Source of the DNA: Candidatus Caccoplasma merdavium
Lineage (GTDB): Bacteria; Bacteroidota; Bacteroidia; Bacteroidales; UBA11471
Assembly (NCBI GenBank): GCA_018715595.1
Contig: DVLI01000003.1
Coordinates: 1 to 64,000, forward strand
DNA length: 64,000 nt
Reading direction: 5' to 3'
Below, in pieces: positions 9,261-52,795 of this stretch (position 1 is the stretch's first letter; the number at the start of each line of letters is the position of its first letter). The position numbers and the translations under genes are program-made. The notes below the pieces were generated by a model. That model worked only from the letters and a program-made list of their open reading frames with translations, was not told the origin of the DNA and did no database searches.

Positions 9261-10607
9261 TCATTCTCTCCATTCCCACGACAGCCGCACGATGTCTTCC
9301 TCGACAAGTTCGCTGCCCATCTGCACCTCGATGATCTGCAAGTCGGTGACAGCCCGCACGGCGTGCTTCTGTCCCACCTTGATGTGTATGACATCGCCCC
9401 GGCCCACTTCGACGACACGACCGTCGAGCGCCAGCTGTCCCCGACCGTCGATAAAGGTCCACACCTCCTCGCGACGGTTGTGATACTGGTAGCTGATGTT
9501 GCAACCGGCCTTGATGCAGAGGAGCTTGGTCAGGGCTCGATAGCCGTCGGGCAATACGTTGTAGCCCATCACCTTGTAGGTACCCCAGCGCCGCTCCTCA
9601 TACATGGGTCGCTTGGCAAAACGGGTGGCATAGGATTTGAGGCGGGTGCAAGAGTCCTTATCGCCCACCAGGATTCCGTCGGGACTGGCTGCCACGATGG
9701 CGTTTTTCATGCCGAGGCACACAATCGGTATCTCCAACTCATTCACCACATGGGTACCGTCGGAGCCTTCGCCCATGACGGCATTGCCGATGGTGCGGTC
9801 GGGCATTTCCTCGGTGAGGCTGTTCCAGGTTCCGAGGTCTTTCCAATTTCCGTTGAAAGGTACCACACCCACCGACGAGGTTTTCTCCACCACCTCGAAA
9901 TCGAAACTGATTTTGGGCAGTTCGAGATAACGCAACCGCATCTCGTCGAAGGTGTCGGCCTTGACATAACGGGCAATGTAATCGTCGAGGAAACCCAGTT
10001 TGAAGGCAAAGACGCCCCCATTCCAAAGAGCCCCTTCGCGTATCAACTTCTCGGCATACTGAATCTCGGGCTTTTCGACGAAACGGACTACCGGATAAAC
10101 GTCGGCATCGGCATGTGCCATGTCGGGAATGATATAACCGAATGTCGCCGAAGGTCTCTTCGGGCGGATTCCCATCAACATCACATCGGCGGCACCCCGC
10201 TCGGCGGCCGCGGCCATCTGCACGATGACGGCAAAATAACTTTCATCGGTATAGGGGTCGATGGGCATCACCACGACAACCTCGTCGCGACCGCATTGCT
10301 TGTCTTTGAGCAGATGGGTCGTCGCCAAAGCTATCGCGGGGAAGGTGTTGCGACGTTCGGGCTCGGTAACCACGTCGACAGCATTACCGAGCTGGGTGGT
10401 TATGGCATCTTTCTGCGACACGCTGGTAGCGACCGTGATGGGGGCGTCGAGCCCCGACTCCTTGATTTGCCGCACAATGCGTTGCAGCATCGACTCCCGC
10501 GTACCGTCGGGAGCTTCGAGCAATTTGAGGAACTGTTTGGAGCGGGCGTCGTTCGACAACGGCCAAAGGCGTTTTCCCGAGCCGCCCGATAATAATATGA
10601 TTCTCAT
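9261..10607 (-). CDS. manC: Mannose-1-phosphate guanylyltransferase with C-terminal cupin domain
   Basis: 448 residues. The N-terminal nucleotidyltransferase domain opens with the signature LSGGSGKRLWPLS followed by KQFL and carries FVEKPE and LWNGGVFAFK. The C-terminal ~110 residues (EERRWGTYKVM... ISYQYHNRREEVWTFIDG...GDVIHIKVGQKHAV) form the cupin (type II phosphomannose isomerase-like) domain; such proteins can have both GDP-mannose pyrophosphorylase and isomerase activity. The product, GDP-mannose, is the substrate of Gmd and Fcl encoded just upstream in the same operon. Its ATG overlaps the fcl stop as ATGA, indicating translational coupling. Confidence 0.93.
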   Translation of the reverse strand: MRIILLSGGSGKRLWPLSNDARSKQFLKLLEAPDGTRESMLQRIVRQIKESGLDAPITVATSVSQKDAITTQLGNAVDVVTEPERRNTFPAIALATTHLLKDKQCGRDEVVVVMPIDPYTDESYFAVIVQMAAAAERGAADVMLMGIRPKRPSATFGYIIPDMAHADADVYPVVRFVEKPEIQYAEKLIREGALWNGGVFAFKLGFLDDYIARYVKADTFDEMRLRYLELPKISFDFEVVEKTSSVGVVPFNGNWKDLGTWNSLTEEMPDRTIGNAVMGEGSDGTHVVNELEIPIVCLGMKNAIVAASPDGILVGDKDSCTRLKSYATRFAKRPMYEERRWGTYKVMGYNVLPDGYRALTKLLCIKAGCNISYQYHNRREEVWTFIDGRGQLALDGRVVEVGRGDVIHIKVGQKHAVRAVTDLQIIEVQMGSELVEEDIVRLSWEWRE

Positions 10608-11689
10608 ATCGATGGGTTAATACTTTGACAATACCAGTGATAAAGGCGCTTGACACCTTCTTCGATTTCTATCTTGTGGCACCACCCAAGGCTATGCAGG
10701 CGGGTCACGTCGCAGAGTTTGCGGGGCGTACCGTCGGGCTTGGTGGCGTCGAATTGCAACCGGCCCCGATAGCCGATTGTGGCGACAATGAGCCGGGCCA
10801 AGTCGCCGATGGAGATTTCTTTTCCCGTACCGATATTGATATGGCAGTTGCGCACCTCCTTCGAGGTTCCCGCCAAGTCCTTGAAATCGACCTGCTCCAT
10901 CACGAAGACGCTGGCATCGGCCATCTCTTCGGACCACAGAAACTCTCTCAACGGACGGCCGGTTCCCCACAGGGTGACCGCCTCGGCCGCAATGCCGTAA
11001 CGGAGAAGGGTGGCCACGATGGTCTCCTTGTCGGCCGCACCGGTCACCCCTTCGACGGGGCGACAATCCAAGTCGGCCCGCACACTCTTCCAGTCGCCCT
11101 CGTGCAGACTGTGCGCCAGGAATATCTTGCGCATCATGGCCGGTATGACATGGGAATTTTCGAGATGGAAGTTGTCGTTGGGGCCGTACAGGTTGGTCGG
11201 CATCACGGCCAGGTAATTGGTACCGTATTGCAGGTTGAAGCTCTCGCACATCTTCAAGCCGACGATTTTCGACAGGGCATACGGTTCATTGGTATATTCG
11301 AGCGGCCCCGTCAACAGATATTCTTCCTTGATGGGCTGCGGACAATCGCGGGGATAGATGCATGTCGAGCCCAAGACCAGCATTTTCTTCACCCCGTGGC
11401 GGAAAGCCTCGCCGATAACATTCTGCTGTATCTGCAAATTTTCGTATATAAAATCGGCGCGATAGGTGTTGTTGGCCATAATCCCGCCCACATGAGCGGC
11501 GGCCAAGATGACATAATCGGGGCGTTCTTCGTCGAAAAAGCGTTTCACGGCGACCCCGTCGAGCAAGTCGAGCTCGGCATGCGTGCGCCCCACCAAAGAG
11601 GTGTAGCCTTTGACCCGCAGGTTGTTCCAAATGGCCGAGCCTACCAGCCCCCGATGGCCGGCGACATAGATTTTCGCATTCTTTTCCAT
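10604..11689 (-). CDS. fcl: GDP-L-fucose synthase
   Basis: 361 residues from the ATG at 11689; an in-frame GTG at 11695 would overlap the gmd stop and add two residues. Rossmann motif GHRGLVGSA (11-19) and the catalytic Ser108 (GSTCIYP), Tyr137 and Lys141 (YALSK) of short-chain epimerase/reductases are present. It converts GDP-4-keto-6-deoxymannose to GDP-L-fucose with NADPH. It sits between gmd and manC, completing the de novo GDP-fucose route. Bacteroidales use GDP-fucose for capsule and for protein O-glycans. Confidence 0.95.
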   Translation of the reverse strand: MEKNAKIYVAGHRGLVGSAIWNNLRVKGYTSLVGRTHAELDLLDGVAVKRFFDEERPDYVILAAAHVGGIMANNTYRADFIYENLQIQQNVIGEAFRHGVKKMLVLGSTCIYPRDCPQPIKEEYLLTGPLEYTNEPYALSKIVGLKMCESFNLQYGTNYLAVMPTNLYGPNDNFHLENSHVIPAMMRKIFLAHSLHEGDWKSVRADLDCRPVEGVTGAADKETIVATLLRYGIAAEAVTLWGTGRPLREFLWSEEMADASVFVMEQVDFKDLAGTSKEVRNCHINIGTGKEISIGDLARLIVATIGYRGRLQFDATKPDGTPRKLCDVTRLHSLGWCHKIEIEEGVKRLYHWYCQSINPSI

Positions 11690-11691
11690 AC

Positions 11692-12771
11692 TCACTGCCC
11701 GATTTGTGAACGAAGATAGAGTTTTTTCACAAATTTCATATCATGCTCCACCATAATTCTCACCAATTCGGGGAAAGTCGTCTTGCGCGGATTCCACCCC
11801 AACAGGGTCCTGGCCTTGGTGGGGTCACCCAACAACTGCTCCACCTCAGCGGGACGGAAGAAGCGCGGGTCGACCGCCACAAGCACACGCCCCGTAGCCT
11901 TGTCGATGCCCACTTCGTCGACGCCCTCGCCTTCCCAGCGGAGTTCGATGCCCACCTCCTTGAAGGCCAGTGCCGTAAATTCCCGCACGGTATGGTATTC
12001 GCCGGTAGCGATGACAAAGTCCTCGGGCGTGTCGTGTTGAAGCATCAGCCACATGCACTCGACATAATCCTTGGCATACCCCCAGTCGCGCAAGGCATTG
12101 AGGTTGCCCAGGTAGAGCTTGTCCTGATAGCCCTGCGCTATGCGGGCGGCGGCCAGGGTAATCTTGCGCGTGACGAAATTCTCGCCGCGCCGCTCCGATT
12201 CATGGTTGAAAAGGATACCGTTCACGGCAAACATGCCGTATGCCTCGCGGTAGTTCTTGGTAATCCAGAAACCGTATTGCTTGGCCACGCCATAGGGCGA
12301 ACGGGGATAGAACGGGGTGGTCTCCCGCTGGGGGACTTCCTGCACCAACCCGAAGAGTTCCGAGGTCGATGCCTGATAGATGCGACACCGCTTTTCGAGG
12401 CCGAGAATGCGCACGGCTTCGAGCAAACGCAGGGTGCCCAAAGCATCGGCCTCGGCCGTATATTCGGGCACGTCGAACGAGACTTTGACGTGTGACTGTG
12501 CGGCAAGGTTATAAATTTCACCGGGCTGCACGGCCTGAATGATGCGCACCAGCGACGACGAGTCAGTCATGTCGCCATAATGCAGATTTATCAACCGCTT
12601 TTGGTGCATGTCGCGCACCCATTCATCGAGATAGAGATGCTCTATGCGTCCGGTATTGAACGACGACGAGCGGCGAAGGATTCCATGTACTTCATACCCT
12701 TTTTCCAAAAGAAACTCGGCCAAGAACGAACCGTCCTGACCGGTAATGCCTGTAATCAATGCTTTTTTCAT
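11692..12771 (-). CDS. gmd: GDP-mannose 4,6-dehydratase
   Basis: 359 residues. Nucleotide-binding [15 protein letters not shown] at the N-terminus, the [14 protein letters not shown] segment that binds the GDP/cofactor, active-site STSELFG (135-141) and Tyr160xxxLys164 ([10 protein letters not shown]). It dehydrates GDP-D-mannose to GDP-4-keto-6-deoxy-D-mannose with bound NADP. First gene of the gmd-fcl-manC operon: the junctions overlap by 4 bases or are 2 bases apart. Two -7-like boxes lie 64-141 bases upstream. Confidence 0.96.
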
Positions 12772-49744: not shown

Positions 49745-49785
49745 AGGAAAGGGGCCAAACAACTTTGTTTGGTCCCTTTCCTCAA
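49745..49785. terminator. Hairpin between convergent CDF and BACON genes
   Basis: AGGAAAGGGGCCAAAC (49745-49760) pairs with GTTTGGTCCCTTTCCT (49766-49781), one G-U pair. The minus strand continues GCTTTATT; the plus strand has no T-run, so its role is more likely for the minus-strand operon, with possible function in both directions. Confidence 0.7.
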
Positions 49786-49844: not shown

Positions 49845-50978
49845 CTAATATATGGGAACATTTTCAAAATAGATTCGCGGGTCGGTCAAAGAGTCGGGAT
49901 ACAAATCATAAGGCCATATACCCAAAATCACAGTCAGTTTATCGGCAGAAGCATTGAAATTTTTGACAACCACCGTTCCCTGACATTTTACCCTCTCGGG
50001 GAATGTAGAGGTCAGTACATAATTCTGGTTTTGAGAGACTCCGTTAAATGTATAATTTGAAGTTACATAATTGGTGTAATCATCATCCGTAATAACGGTT
50101 CGATATCCGCCCATTATGAGAGAATTGCTATTTGTCGTATATATTCTGAAATCATTAATCGCGCCCAACGAAACATTTCTCAACGTATAAGTAAGTGTTA
50201 CGGAAGAACCACTGCGCTTGCAACTCACAATCTCAGCTTCTATGCGACTATCCCCCGAAGACACACTTGCCGAGCTATAATCTTCTCTTGTTCCATCTTC
50301 TTCATCGTCCGGTTCAGCGGTTTCATCGCCCTCATTACCCGACGACGTATTTTTATAAGACACAAACACTTGCACCGATTGTGACCCACCGGCGGCCTCG
50401 ACATTAAAAGAGGTATTGACATCTTTCGTGATTTTCGAACGGTCTATCATCACTTTCACCGTACTTGATTTACCTACACTTGTAGACCCCACAGAAGGAG
50501 AAACACTAAGCCAATCGACCGTAATGTTCGTTATCTGCCATGAAATGGGCGAATTTCCGATATTGTTTATCACCAAATCCCGCTCGTTATAAGTTGTACC
50601 AAACTGTAACGATTTCGTCGAAAGCGATACATCGGAAACAGATTTCTCGGACGTGAGTTGCATGTCACATATCACACTCTCTCCGGAAATGACCGATACT
50701 TGCCGGCTATTCTCGATATAGCCCGAAGCCGTTACCGACAGACGATATTGGCCCGGTTCAAGCTCGACAAACTCATAGCTACCATCGCGCCCCGTTACGG
50801 CAGTAATGTTCCCGGGTGATAGCATCACCTGCGCTCCACTAATTGCAGCTTTCGTATCGGCAGATGAAATTTTTCCATACACGCCTCCGAATACATTATA
50901 TTCTTCTTCTTTATCACAGGCAGTTGTGATAAACAACACCGATAAAAAGAGGCTCAGCAGCCTCATTGTTTTTTTCAT
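49845..50978 (-). CDS. Lipoprotein with CarboxypepD_reg-like and BACON domains
   Basis: 377 residues from MKKTMRLLSLFLSVLFITTAC; lipobox ITTAC. Domains: a carboxypeptidase regulatory-like fold (~33-105: FGGVYGKISSADTKAAISGAQVMLSPGNITAVTGRDGSYEF, LEPGQYRLSVTASGY), then a BACON-like beta domain (~115-205: LQFGTTYNERDLVINNIGNSPISWQITN, DWLSVSPSVGSTSVG), an acidic linker and a C-terminal beta domain. BACON domains bind carbohydrate or mucin-like ligands in Bacteroidetes surface proteins. AT-richer codon use than the surrounding genome. Last gene of the three-gene operon. Confidence 0.8.
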   Translation of the reverse strand: MKKTMRLLSLFLSVLFITTACDKEEEYNVFGGVYGKISSADTKAAISGAQVMLSPGNITAVTGRDGSYEFVELEPGQYRLSVTASGYIENSRQVSVISGESVICDMQLTSEKSVSDVSLSTKSLQFGTTYNERDLVINNIGNSPISWQITNITVDWLSVSPSVGSTSVGKSSTVKVMIDRSKITKDVNTSFNVEAAGGSQSVQVFVSYKNTSSGNEGDETAEPDDEEDGTREDYSSASVSSGDSRIEAEIVSCKRSGSSVTLTYTLRNVSLGAINDFRIYTTNSNSLIMGGYRTVITDDDYTNYVTSNYTFNGVSQNQNYVLTSTFPERVKCQGTVVVKNFNASADKLTVILGIWPYDLYPDSLTDPRIYFENVPIY

Positions 50979-50988
50979 ATTCAATAAT

Positions 50989-51888
50989 TTAAAATGTTAA
51001 ACTAAATTCCATCGCCAAGGTTTTTCCTTCATACAATGCGGGAGAGATATTATATGAACAATTCAAAGCATCGCGGCCTTTCGACTTGACAACCACGCGA
51101 CGCGCACCCGGCGATACTATGGCGTCGACAAGATTGTAGACATACAATGCCCCAACAGCTCCGATGCACACGTTTCTTGCCGTGGAAAAGCGGTCGACAC
51201 GTCTGATATAATCGCGTCGTTGTGCCACATCATGTGTTTCGTTCACCCTGCGTCGATAGTCAGCCCGCATATTCTCTGTGGCTACGATACCGCCAACCAA
51301 GAGTGCCGCTCCGCCCAGAATCATTCCGCCTTTGAGTTTCTGTCCCTTTGAGAATTGTCCCCAACCGGGAATGATAAGAGATTTCCACATTGCCCTTGCG
51401 CCGTAATTTGTGGTAAGCGACAGATTGTCAAACAACGGAGGGACATCCGATGCCGATACGGCATATAACCTCGACAGTACATAATTCCCTGCTCTATCCA
51501 TCTCCCAAAACTCATCTACGACTTCTACATAAAGTTTTGAGACTTCACTCTGCAAATGAAGATTTGTCGTACTGTTATAGTCTACCTGCTCATGTAATTT
51601 ACCATTTACCCATTCTTGTGATACGGACTGTTTGGATACTCCGTCGGACATAGCCAAAATGCCGTTTTTCAAGCCGGAATCGGACACCAATTCAAACAAG
51701 CATTTTTCACGAGCCTCATCTAGTGTCGGAGCGATAGCTGTATGTATCTCGTACTTGAATGTGGCGTTTGTAGGAGTCGGGAGCTTTTGGAACCATTTTG
51801 GGCGATATGGGTCGGACGAGACATTCTGAGAAACCAATATCTCCGACGATACCGAGAGTATCATCAAGAGCAATATGACTATTCTCAT
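50989..51888 (-). CDS. Envelope protein with LPP20-like domain and C-terminal membrane hairpins
   Basis: 299 residues with a signal sequence (MRIVILLLMILSVSSEILVSQ). Residues ~30-155 read like an LPP20-type domain (RPKWFQKLPTPTNATFKYEIHTAIAPTLDEAREKCLFEL). Residues ~160-205 have MWKSLIIPGWGQFSKGQKLKGGMILGGAALLVGGIVATEN, a DUF5683-like hydrophobic segment found in Bacteroidetes envelope proteins, and a second hydrophobic patch (NVCIGAVGALYVYNLVDAIV) follows. The C-terminus is a beta-rich tail ending TLAMEFSLTF. It overlaps no neighbour but lies 3 bp and 10 bp from them, so the operon is tight. Function unknown. Confidence 0.7.
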   Translation of the reverse strand: MRIVILLLMILSVSSEILVSQNVSSDPYRPKWFQKLPTPTNATFKYEIHTAIAPTLDEAREKCLFELVSDSGLKNGILAMSDGVSKQSVSQEWVNGKLHEQVDYNSTTNLHLQSEVSKLYVEVVDEFWEMDRAGNYVLSRLYAVSASDVPPLFDNLSLTTNYGARAMWKSLIIPGWGQFSKGQKLKGGMILGGAALLVGGIVATENMRADYRRRVNETHDVAQRRDYIRRVDRFSTARNVCIGAVGALYVYNLVDAIVSPGARRVVVKSKGRDALNCSYNISPALYEGKTLAMEFSLTF

Positions 51889-51891
51889 ACG

Positions 51892-52524
51892 TTATTTAAG
51901 GTTGTTTTCTTTTTTGTACCGTTCAAGTCCCTCTGACATTTTCTGCATGAAACGCTCTCTATCATATTCCAATTCAATAACACCATCACGACTCAACTCA
52001 TTTTTCAATTTGTCAGAAAACTCGTTCGTCGTATTTCTCATTTCTATGCAAACATAGACTTGCACGCTACCATCAGACAAATCATATATCGAGGTTTCTA
52101 TTACCCTCGTGTTTGAAATTTCCTGGGCTACATATTGTGTCATTATGGACTCTCCAAGCGTTCCCGCCGTACTTTTTATATTTCGGGCAGCATTTTGGGC
52201 ATAATCCTGGGCTGCTCCCTCTACTGCCACTTTAATCATGGAAGCCATGCGATTTCGTGCATCCCGCTCGGCTTCGGACAAAGCAACTTTTTCAACATAA
52301 GAAGTGGCCGTTCCGTAAGCCCGCAGATTTTCCGACTCGGCATTTGCCAAGGCTATGCACGGTTCTACGGTACGAAGTGTCCTCGATGGGCGCTGTTGTT
52401 GTTGCTGTTGCTGCCTTTTCCATTCTTGATACTCATAATCGTTATAGGCACTTTTTTGAGAACTTCCACACCCAATCATCGTTGGAGCGAGAAGCAGTAG
52501 AAATAAAATTTGATTTGCTTTCAT
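51892..52524 (-). CDS. LPP20-like lipoprotein
   Basis: 210 residues; lipobox MIGC (MKANQILFLLLLAPTMIGC). A Gln-rich linker (eight Q in a row) precedes an LPP20-like domain: NLRAYGTATSYVEKVALSEAERDARNRMASMIKVAVEGAAQDYAQ, IMTQYVAQEISNTRVIETSIYDLSDGSVQVYVCIEM. The helix-strand order and alternating A-E-x-x-A-x-x-x-M pattern match the family of H. pylori Lpp20 and related outer membrane lipoproteins. First gene of the operon, 85 bases after a consensus promoter. Confidence 0.72.
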   Translation of the reverse strand: MKANQILFLLLLAPTMIGCGSSQKSAYNDYEYQEWKRQQQQQQQRPSRTLRTVEPCIALANAESENLRAYGTATSYVEKVALSEAERDARNRMASMIKVAVEGAAQDYAQNAARNIKSTAGTLGESIMTQYVAQEISNTRVIETSIYDLSDGSVQVYVCIEMRNTTNEFSDKLKNELSRDGVIELEYDRERFMQKMSEGLERYKKENNLK

Positions 52525-52609
52525 TTGGACATATATTAAAAAATTATTTTTCATGATCGAGTCCTTTCAAATCAGGTTGAAAAACCTGTTCAATAAAACA
52601 ACTGTCTTG

Positions 52610-52640
52610 CAAAGATATAAATAATATAGGGCCGTGCAAA
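52610..52640 (-). promoter_or_regulatory. Consensus promoter of the LPP20-like operon
   Basis: Minus strand TTTG (52640-52637), 19-base spacer, TATCTTTG (52617-52610). Both boxes match. A small 6-bp hairpin (52573-52588) lies in the leader. Confidence 0.8.
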
Positions 52641-52749: not shown

Positions 52750-52795
52750 TAATAAAGAAACCCGTTTCCAGCGGAGTGGAAACGGGTTTTTGTTT
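52750..52795 (-). terminator. Terminator of the rpoBC operon
   Basis: AAACCCGTTTCCA (52758-52770) pairs with TGGAAACGGGTTT (52777-52789), loop GCGGAG; followed on the minus strand by TTTCTTTATT. Confidence 0.85.

Follow-up and report, generated by a model that had tools for sequence, protein, structure and literature searches.

A recurring envelope cassette of gut Bacteroidales that combines an LPP20/FlgP-like lipoprotein, a DUF5683 protein and a predicted surface lipoprotein with variable tips

Results

Organization of the locus

The window is the whole stretch of DNA that was analysed, 64,000 nucleotides in length. In it, three minus-strand genes, here called g1, g2 and g3, are flanked by rpoC and a cation-efflux gene (Table 1). 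The g1 stop at 51892 is followed by the g2 ATG at 51888, leaving a gap of 3 bp, and the g2 stop at 50989 lies 10 bp from the g3 ATG at 50978. The open reading frames, their order and both gaps thus reproduce the three tightly spaced genes described in a first-pass annotation, made from the sequence alone. The same annotation had all three products exported and two of them lipoproteins, which agrees with the lipoproteins g1 and g3 and with the plain signal peptide of g2.

The promoter claimed ahead of the cassette is present, reading from 52640 to 52610 on the minus strand, and its pattern occurs twice in 64 kb, versus 0.10 expected. The hairpin claimed for the end of the operon was also found, as a stem so placed that it could serve g3 as well as the cation-efflux gene that converges on it. 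A second terminator-like stem sets the cassette apart from rpoC transcription. In addition, the predicted 5' leader of g1 holds a short stem-loop (CAGGTT-TTTC-AACCTG, 52571-52586), a possible regulatory site.

Table 1. Features of the cassette, with positions numbered along the window and domain limits in residues
Feature	Position	Strand	Details
Terminator-like stem	49745..49782	.	18 bp arms 49745-49762/49765-49782, 94% complementary
g3, lipoprotein, 377 aa	49845..50978	-	Cys21-DKEEE (LES-like)
g3 domains			CarboxypepD_reg TTR-like 31-111; ASH/PapD-like BACON 115-210; acidic linker; Ig-like tip 232-377
g2, exported protein, 299 aa	50989..51888	-	plain signal peptide
g2 domains			putative SHS2/LPP20-like ~30-150; two long helices 184-258 with Arg-rich tip (DUF5683); C-terminal beta hairpin
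g1, LPP20/FlgP-like lipoprotein, 220 aa	51892..52554	-	lipobox Cys29
Bacteroidetes-type promoter, TTTG-N19-TATCTTTG	52610..52640	-	56-86 bp upstream of g1 ATG
Terminator-like stem	52758..52789	.	between rpoC and g1

g1 is related to the LPP20/FlgP lipoproteins

The lipobox Cys is invariant across the g1 family, and a second start at codon 11 (52524) is conserved in it. When a single g1 or g2 sequence was used, Pfam gave no LPP20 match, and the label emerged only from family members and profiles. Here, Pfam LPP20 was matched by 8 of 44 g1 family members (best 0.0066), and the g1 family profile matched the FlgP chain 9hmf_C of C. jejuni with an E of 3.9e-5 and, weakly, H. pylori Lpp20 (5ok8; E 0.065). 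The match to FlgP runs from the signal peptide through the SHS2 region. FlgP builds concentric lipoprotein rings beneath the outer membrane, and in the ring-forming subset of LPP20/FlgP proteins a beta insert separates the helix from the second strand of the SHS2-like fold (PMC12222027). Unlike the FlgP basal disk, the cassette has no flagellum to serve: the flagellar motor family YscJ_FliF is absent from the host genome, which is 99.5% complete, and the partners of g1 are instead a DUF5683 protein and a BACON lipoprotein.

g2 carries DUF5683 with a predicted helical hairpin

The C-terminal half of g2 is DUF5683 (PF18935; E 1.2e-10, 42 bits versus a curated cut-off of 26.7), and this domain was matched in all 64 aligned family members, that is, g2 and 63 relatives. 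No functional description of DUF5683 was found in the open-access literature, where its name turned up in a single paper, a nematode study unrelated to judge from the title. An AF2 model of g2 (pLDDT 85.6) has a beta-alpha-(beta insert)-beta-beta region followed by a helix pair and a beta hairpin. In the N-terminal part these elements are E44-53, H56-75, strands 81-113 (the insert, pLDDT 56-75), E118-130 and E136-145, and their order would make this part SHS2-like. The two helices of the pair have 34-38 residues each with an Arg-rich turn between them, and, by the positive-inside rule, they may anchor the protein in the inner membrane. As the fold searches gave no confident match, both the SHS2-like domain and the anchor are features that we infer. 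Foldseek and VIA-align returned only helical-hairpin look-alikes for g2, and matches to KpsE/Wzc-like proteins were too weak to be kept.

The first-pass annotation had called two of the genes LPP20-like and had described g2 as an LPP20-like/membrane hairpin protein. The LPP20 label holds for g1 and is tentative for the N-terminus of g2, which gave a weak profile match to the H. pylori LPP20-family protein 4kzs (E 0.04); direct comparison of the g1 and g2 profiles was likewise weak (probability 64). DUF5683 in g2 had been overlooked, and its putative membrane hairpin is an extra element relative to the H. pylori protein 4kzs.

g3 is a predicted surface lipoprotein with a variable tip

Both domains first proposed for g3, a CarboxypepD_reg-like fold and a BACON-like domain, are matched above Pfam cut-offs (CarboxypepD_reg, PF13620, E 2.1e-13, 50.8 bits; BACON_2, PF19190, E 1.8e-8, 34.7 bits). 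A third, Ig-like domain at the tip was missed. It has no Pfam match across residues 232-377, and the AF2 model of g3 (pLDDT 83.5) consists of three beta-sandwich domains, the first of which resembles the carboxypeptidase D TTR-like domain (Z 15.0) and the second PapD/ASH folds (Z ~12). The Pfam search suggested at the outset found DUF5683, CarboxypepD_reg and BACON_2.

In Bacteroides, an acidic stretch behind the lipidated Cys is a signal for surface export (LES), for which the published motifs are S(D/E)3 or K-(D/E)2 (PMC6222051). By the loose criterion of at least two acidic residues at +2 to +6, an LES-like stretch follows the lipidated Cys in 66 of 112 g3-type lipoproteins and in 0 of 58 g1 family proteins. 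Because the stretch is present in g3 and not in g1, g3 is predicted to be surface-exposed and g1 to sit on the periplasmic face of the outer membrane. With its acidic residues after Cys and its beta-sandwich modules, g3 is like Bacteroidota LES lipoproteins of the SusG and BtuG type. It differs from them in that the cassette has no TonB-dependent transporter, in that a constant stalk carries exchanged tips, and in its constant g1-g2 partners.

The exchange of tips can be followed in 89 long g3-type proteins. Their N-terminal 110 residues fall into one cluster in 87 of 89 cases, and the last 150 residues of the same proteins split into 13 clusters. The tip types on g3 relatives include Lcl_C, which we take to be C-type-lectin-like, Laminin_G_3, LRR and Ig-like. 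Where the g3-type gene lies upstream, all 24 classified tips belong to the Lcl_C-containing cluster; tips encoded downstream are mostly LamG (18) or Ig-like (15). Further support came from locus L139, to which the window g3 is 74% identical in the tip, versus 28-33% in the stalk and 31% for g2, and the tip has therefore moved between cassettes. Tips of g3 are thus, as judged from these comparisons, exchangeable. A crude regular-expression search around the C-type-lectin-like tips found no diversity-generating reverse transcriptases. An apparent g3-transglutaminase fusion at locus L143 was set aside, as it arose from reading through masked N.

The three genes recur as a unit

A single-sequence query with g2 found no related loci. 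A profile-guided scan of named genomes with the g2 alignment gave 274 relatives; the analysis kept the best 80, all of them from Bacteroidota. A relative, L134, occurs in Parabacteroides gordonii. The following counts rest on the 77 of these best 80 loci with a readable g2. A g1 detectable by profile lies immediately upstream on the same strand in 58/77, and any exported gene of 140-260 aa lies directly upstream in 72/77. A CarboxypepD_reg/BACON lipoprotein is found no more than five genes away, also in 72/77, and a gene for a transglutaminase-like protein is nearby in 46/77. The gene order is the same in most of 20 regions that came from a separate search, and pairwise identity matrices of g1 and g2 are correlated (r 0.765, versus a permutation maximum of 0.234). 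The three-gene set is a real recurring unit across many gut Bacteroidales. The neighbourhood survey proposed in the first-pass annotation therefore found the genes linked in relatives rather than occurring separately; its trio stands, and what it overlooked is the fourth gene, the wide distribution and the exchange of tips.

Outside this set, an exported family of ~204 aa recurs, mostly in the g1 position, and the remaining neighbours occur in few loci. No SusC/SusD, TonB-dependent receptor or glycoside hydrolase is among the recurrent neighbour families of the g2 loci. In the neighbourhoods L073-L152, a divergent XRE-type regulator lies just upstream of g1 in seven loci and an integrase-like gene 2-5 genes upstream in four.

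A transglutaminase-like fourth gene

In relatives, the fourth gene encodes a protein of ~500 aa with a signal peptide, a coiled coil, a Pro-rich linker and a transglutaminase-like domain. The host has a copy of 551 aa on contig C6 (46514-48145; L058 9503-11158), unlinked to the cassette and with no LPP20 genes beside it. Matches to the Pfam transglutaminase-like families PF01841 and PF04473 are below cut-offs. The protein is like these transglutaminase-like/papain-like enzymes in its conserved Cys-His-Asp, which is invariant in all 22 relatives aligned (C470, H497 and D524 of the host copy), and unlike them in its added N-terminal coiled coil and Pro-rich linker. Among 295 genomes, the enzyme is present in 14/18 g2-positive versus 52/277 g2-negative ones (p 3.5e-7, uncorrected for kinship). 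It is missing from 4/18 g2-positive genomes, and the family clearly extends beyond the cassette. The C6 gene adjoins glycoside-hydrolase-like genes, and the G003 copy is beside a similar gene.

The cassette was probably acquired

Acquisition from another genome had been proposed from a visibly low GC content. The GC of g1, g2 and g3 is 41, 46 and 43%, versus a mean of 0.548 for 203 ORFs from sampled stretches of the host genome. Their GC3 is 0.385, 0.48 and 0.431, versus 0.654 +/- 0.109 for the same ORFs, which places the cassette at the 1.5-5.4th percentile of its own genome and bears out the low GC.

The comparison with congeners points in the same direction. None of the six congeneric genomes compared (70-99% complete) has g2. 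In the closest, G003, the same flanking genes are ~117 bp apart, and they match those of the window at 99% (end of rpoC) and 84% (efflux protein) identity; from this near-empty site it follows that acquisition of the cassette is probable. Within the genus this position varies: other genes occupy it in G005, two gene types of the G005 kind lie beside the efflux gene in G004, and in G001 it holds an ABC-F-like gene. Neither an integrase nor a repeat boundary was seen at the window site. The g2 tree requires 22 changes of genus label, versus a mean of 21.5 when the labels are shuffled. Horizontal transfer is the simplest reading, with the reservation that labels of metagenome-assembled genomes and paralogues also scatter. 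Taken with the low GC3, the absence from congeners and the near-empty G003 site, the tree agrees with the proposed acquisition. Elsewhere in the host genome (C11 ~10448-12234; L180 448-2234), the GC of two ORFs is 25-27%, versus ~55% genome-wide, and these ORFs are probably a recent foreign insert.

Discussion

Gut Bacteroidales meet hosts, phages and competitors via surface lipoproteins. The swappable tip of g3 suggests a putative adhesion or recognition device, and the reading that we favour, tentatively and at a little under even confidence, is that the cassette, probably acquired from a relative, encodes a trans-envelope display device. Here, the periplasm-facing outer-membrane lipoprotein g1 and g2 would form a conserved scaffold, with g2 placing an SHS2-like domain in the periplasm and holding the inner membrane by its helical hairpin. 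This scaffold would present g3, whose TTR-like and BACON stalk would carry an exchangeable binding tip acting as an adhesin or ligand-recognition module, and the secreted transglutaminase-like cysteine enzyme, whose gene is usually part of the operon in relatives, may process or cross-link one component. The topology, the formation of a complex, the adhesion function and the substrate of the enzyme are what we infer. The putative role guessed earlier, a surface appendage or secretion accessory, goes in the right direction. It is possible, and on balance unlikely, that non-flagellated gut Bacteroidales have here an undescribed kind of trans-envelope apparatus, horizontally spread and serviced by a transglutaminase-like enzyme, in which FlgP-like lipoproteins have become a general scaffold for exchangeable surface receptors.

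The main rival, an unlikely one, is that g1 and g2 are dedicated export or assembly factors by which the g3 lipoproteins, which are bulky, cross the outer membrane. In its favour, g1-g2 is the conserved core irrespective of tip, and g2 seems membrane-spanning in its AF2 model. Against it, LES-dependent export appears to be a general, phylum-wide route (PMC6222051), so that there is no evident need for an exporter specific to g3, and the relatives of FlgP are structural (PMC12222027). Laminin-G and lectin-like tips in relatives would also fit a locus for nutrient scavenging, with g3 as the surface protein that binds a glycan or ligand, as in Sus or Btu loci, which typically have surface lipoproteins. 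This is improbable, as no other recurrent family is conserved in the neighbourhoods and there is accordingly no SusC/TonB-dependent receptor or glycoside hydrolase as a standing partner; the window cassette adjoins only rpoC and the cation-efflux gene.

The patchy, apparently transferred distribution, the integrase-like genes near 4 loci and the variable tips could instead mean that the cassette belongs to a mobile element and acts in defence or between bacteria, for instance as a phage receptor decoy. This is very doubtful, since neither g1-g3 nor the C6 enzyme matched a PADLOC model and no relative was present among IMG/VR viral contigs or PLSDB plasmids. That the genes are chance neighbours without a shared function is hardly credible, because the synteny survey contradicts it: gene order is kept across many genera and g1 and g2 covary.

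Nearly every domain comes from a known family, and what appears new is the combination together with its wide, transferred, tip-swapping organization. No description of the cassette was found in the open-access literature, subscription journals being outside that scope, and no characterised system was matched, in line with the first-pass statement that no role was described for this gene combination. If the display reading is true, a cassette that can be transferred and that joins swappable tips to a constant scaffold would offer a compact means of changing surface specificity, and an LPP20/FlgP-type lipoprotein would function without a flagellum. DUF5683 and the linked transglutaminase-like family gain a testable context.

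As a separate observation, the genus has a second family of LPP20-like lipoproteins, with members in the host genome (C18:6088-6501; L066), in G003 (C11; L064) and in G004 (C38; L065). The G004 gene directly follows one for a 422-aa exported protein that is also LPP20-like in appearance.
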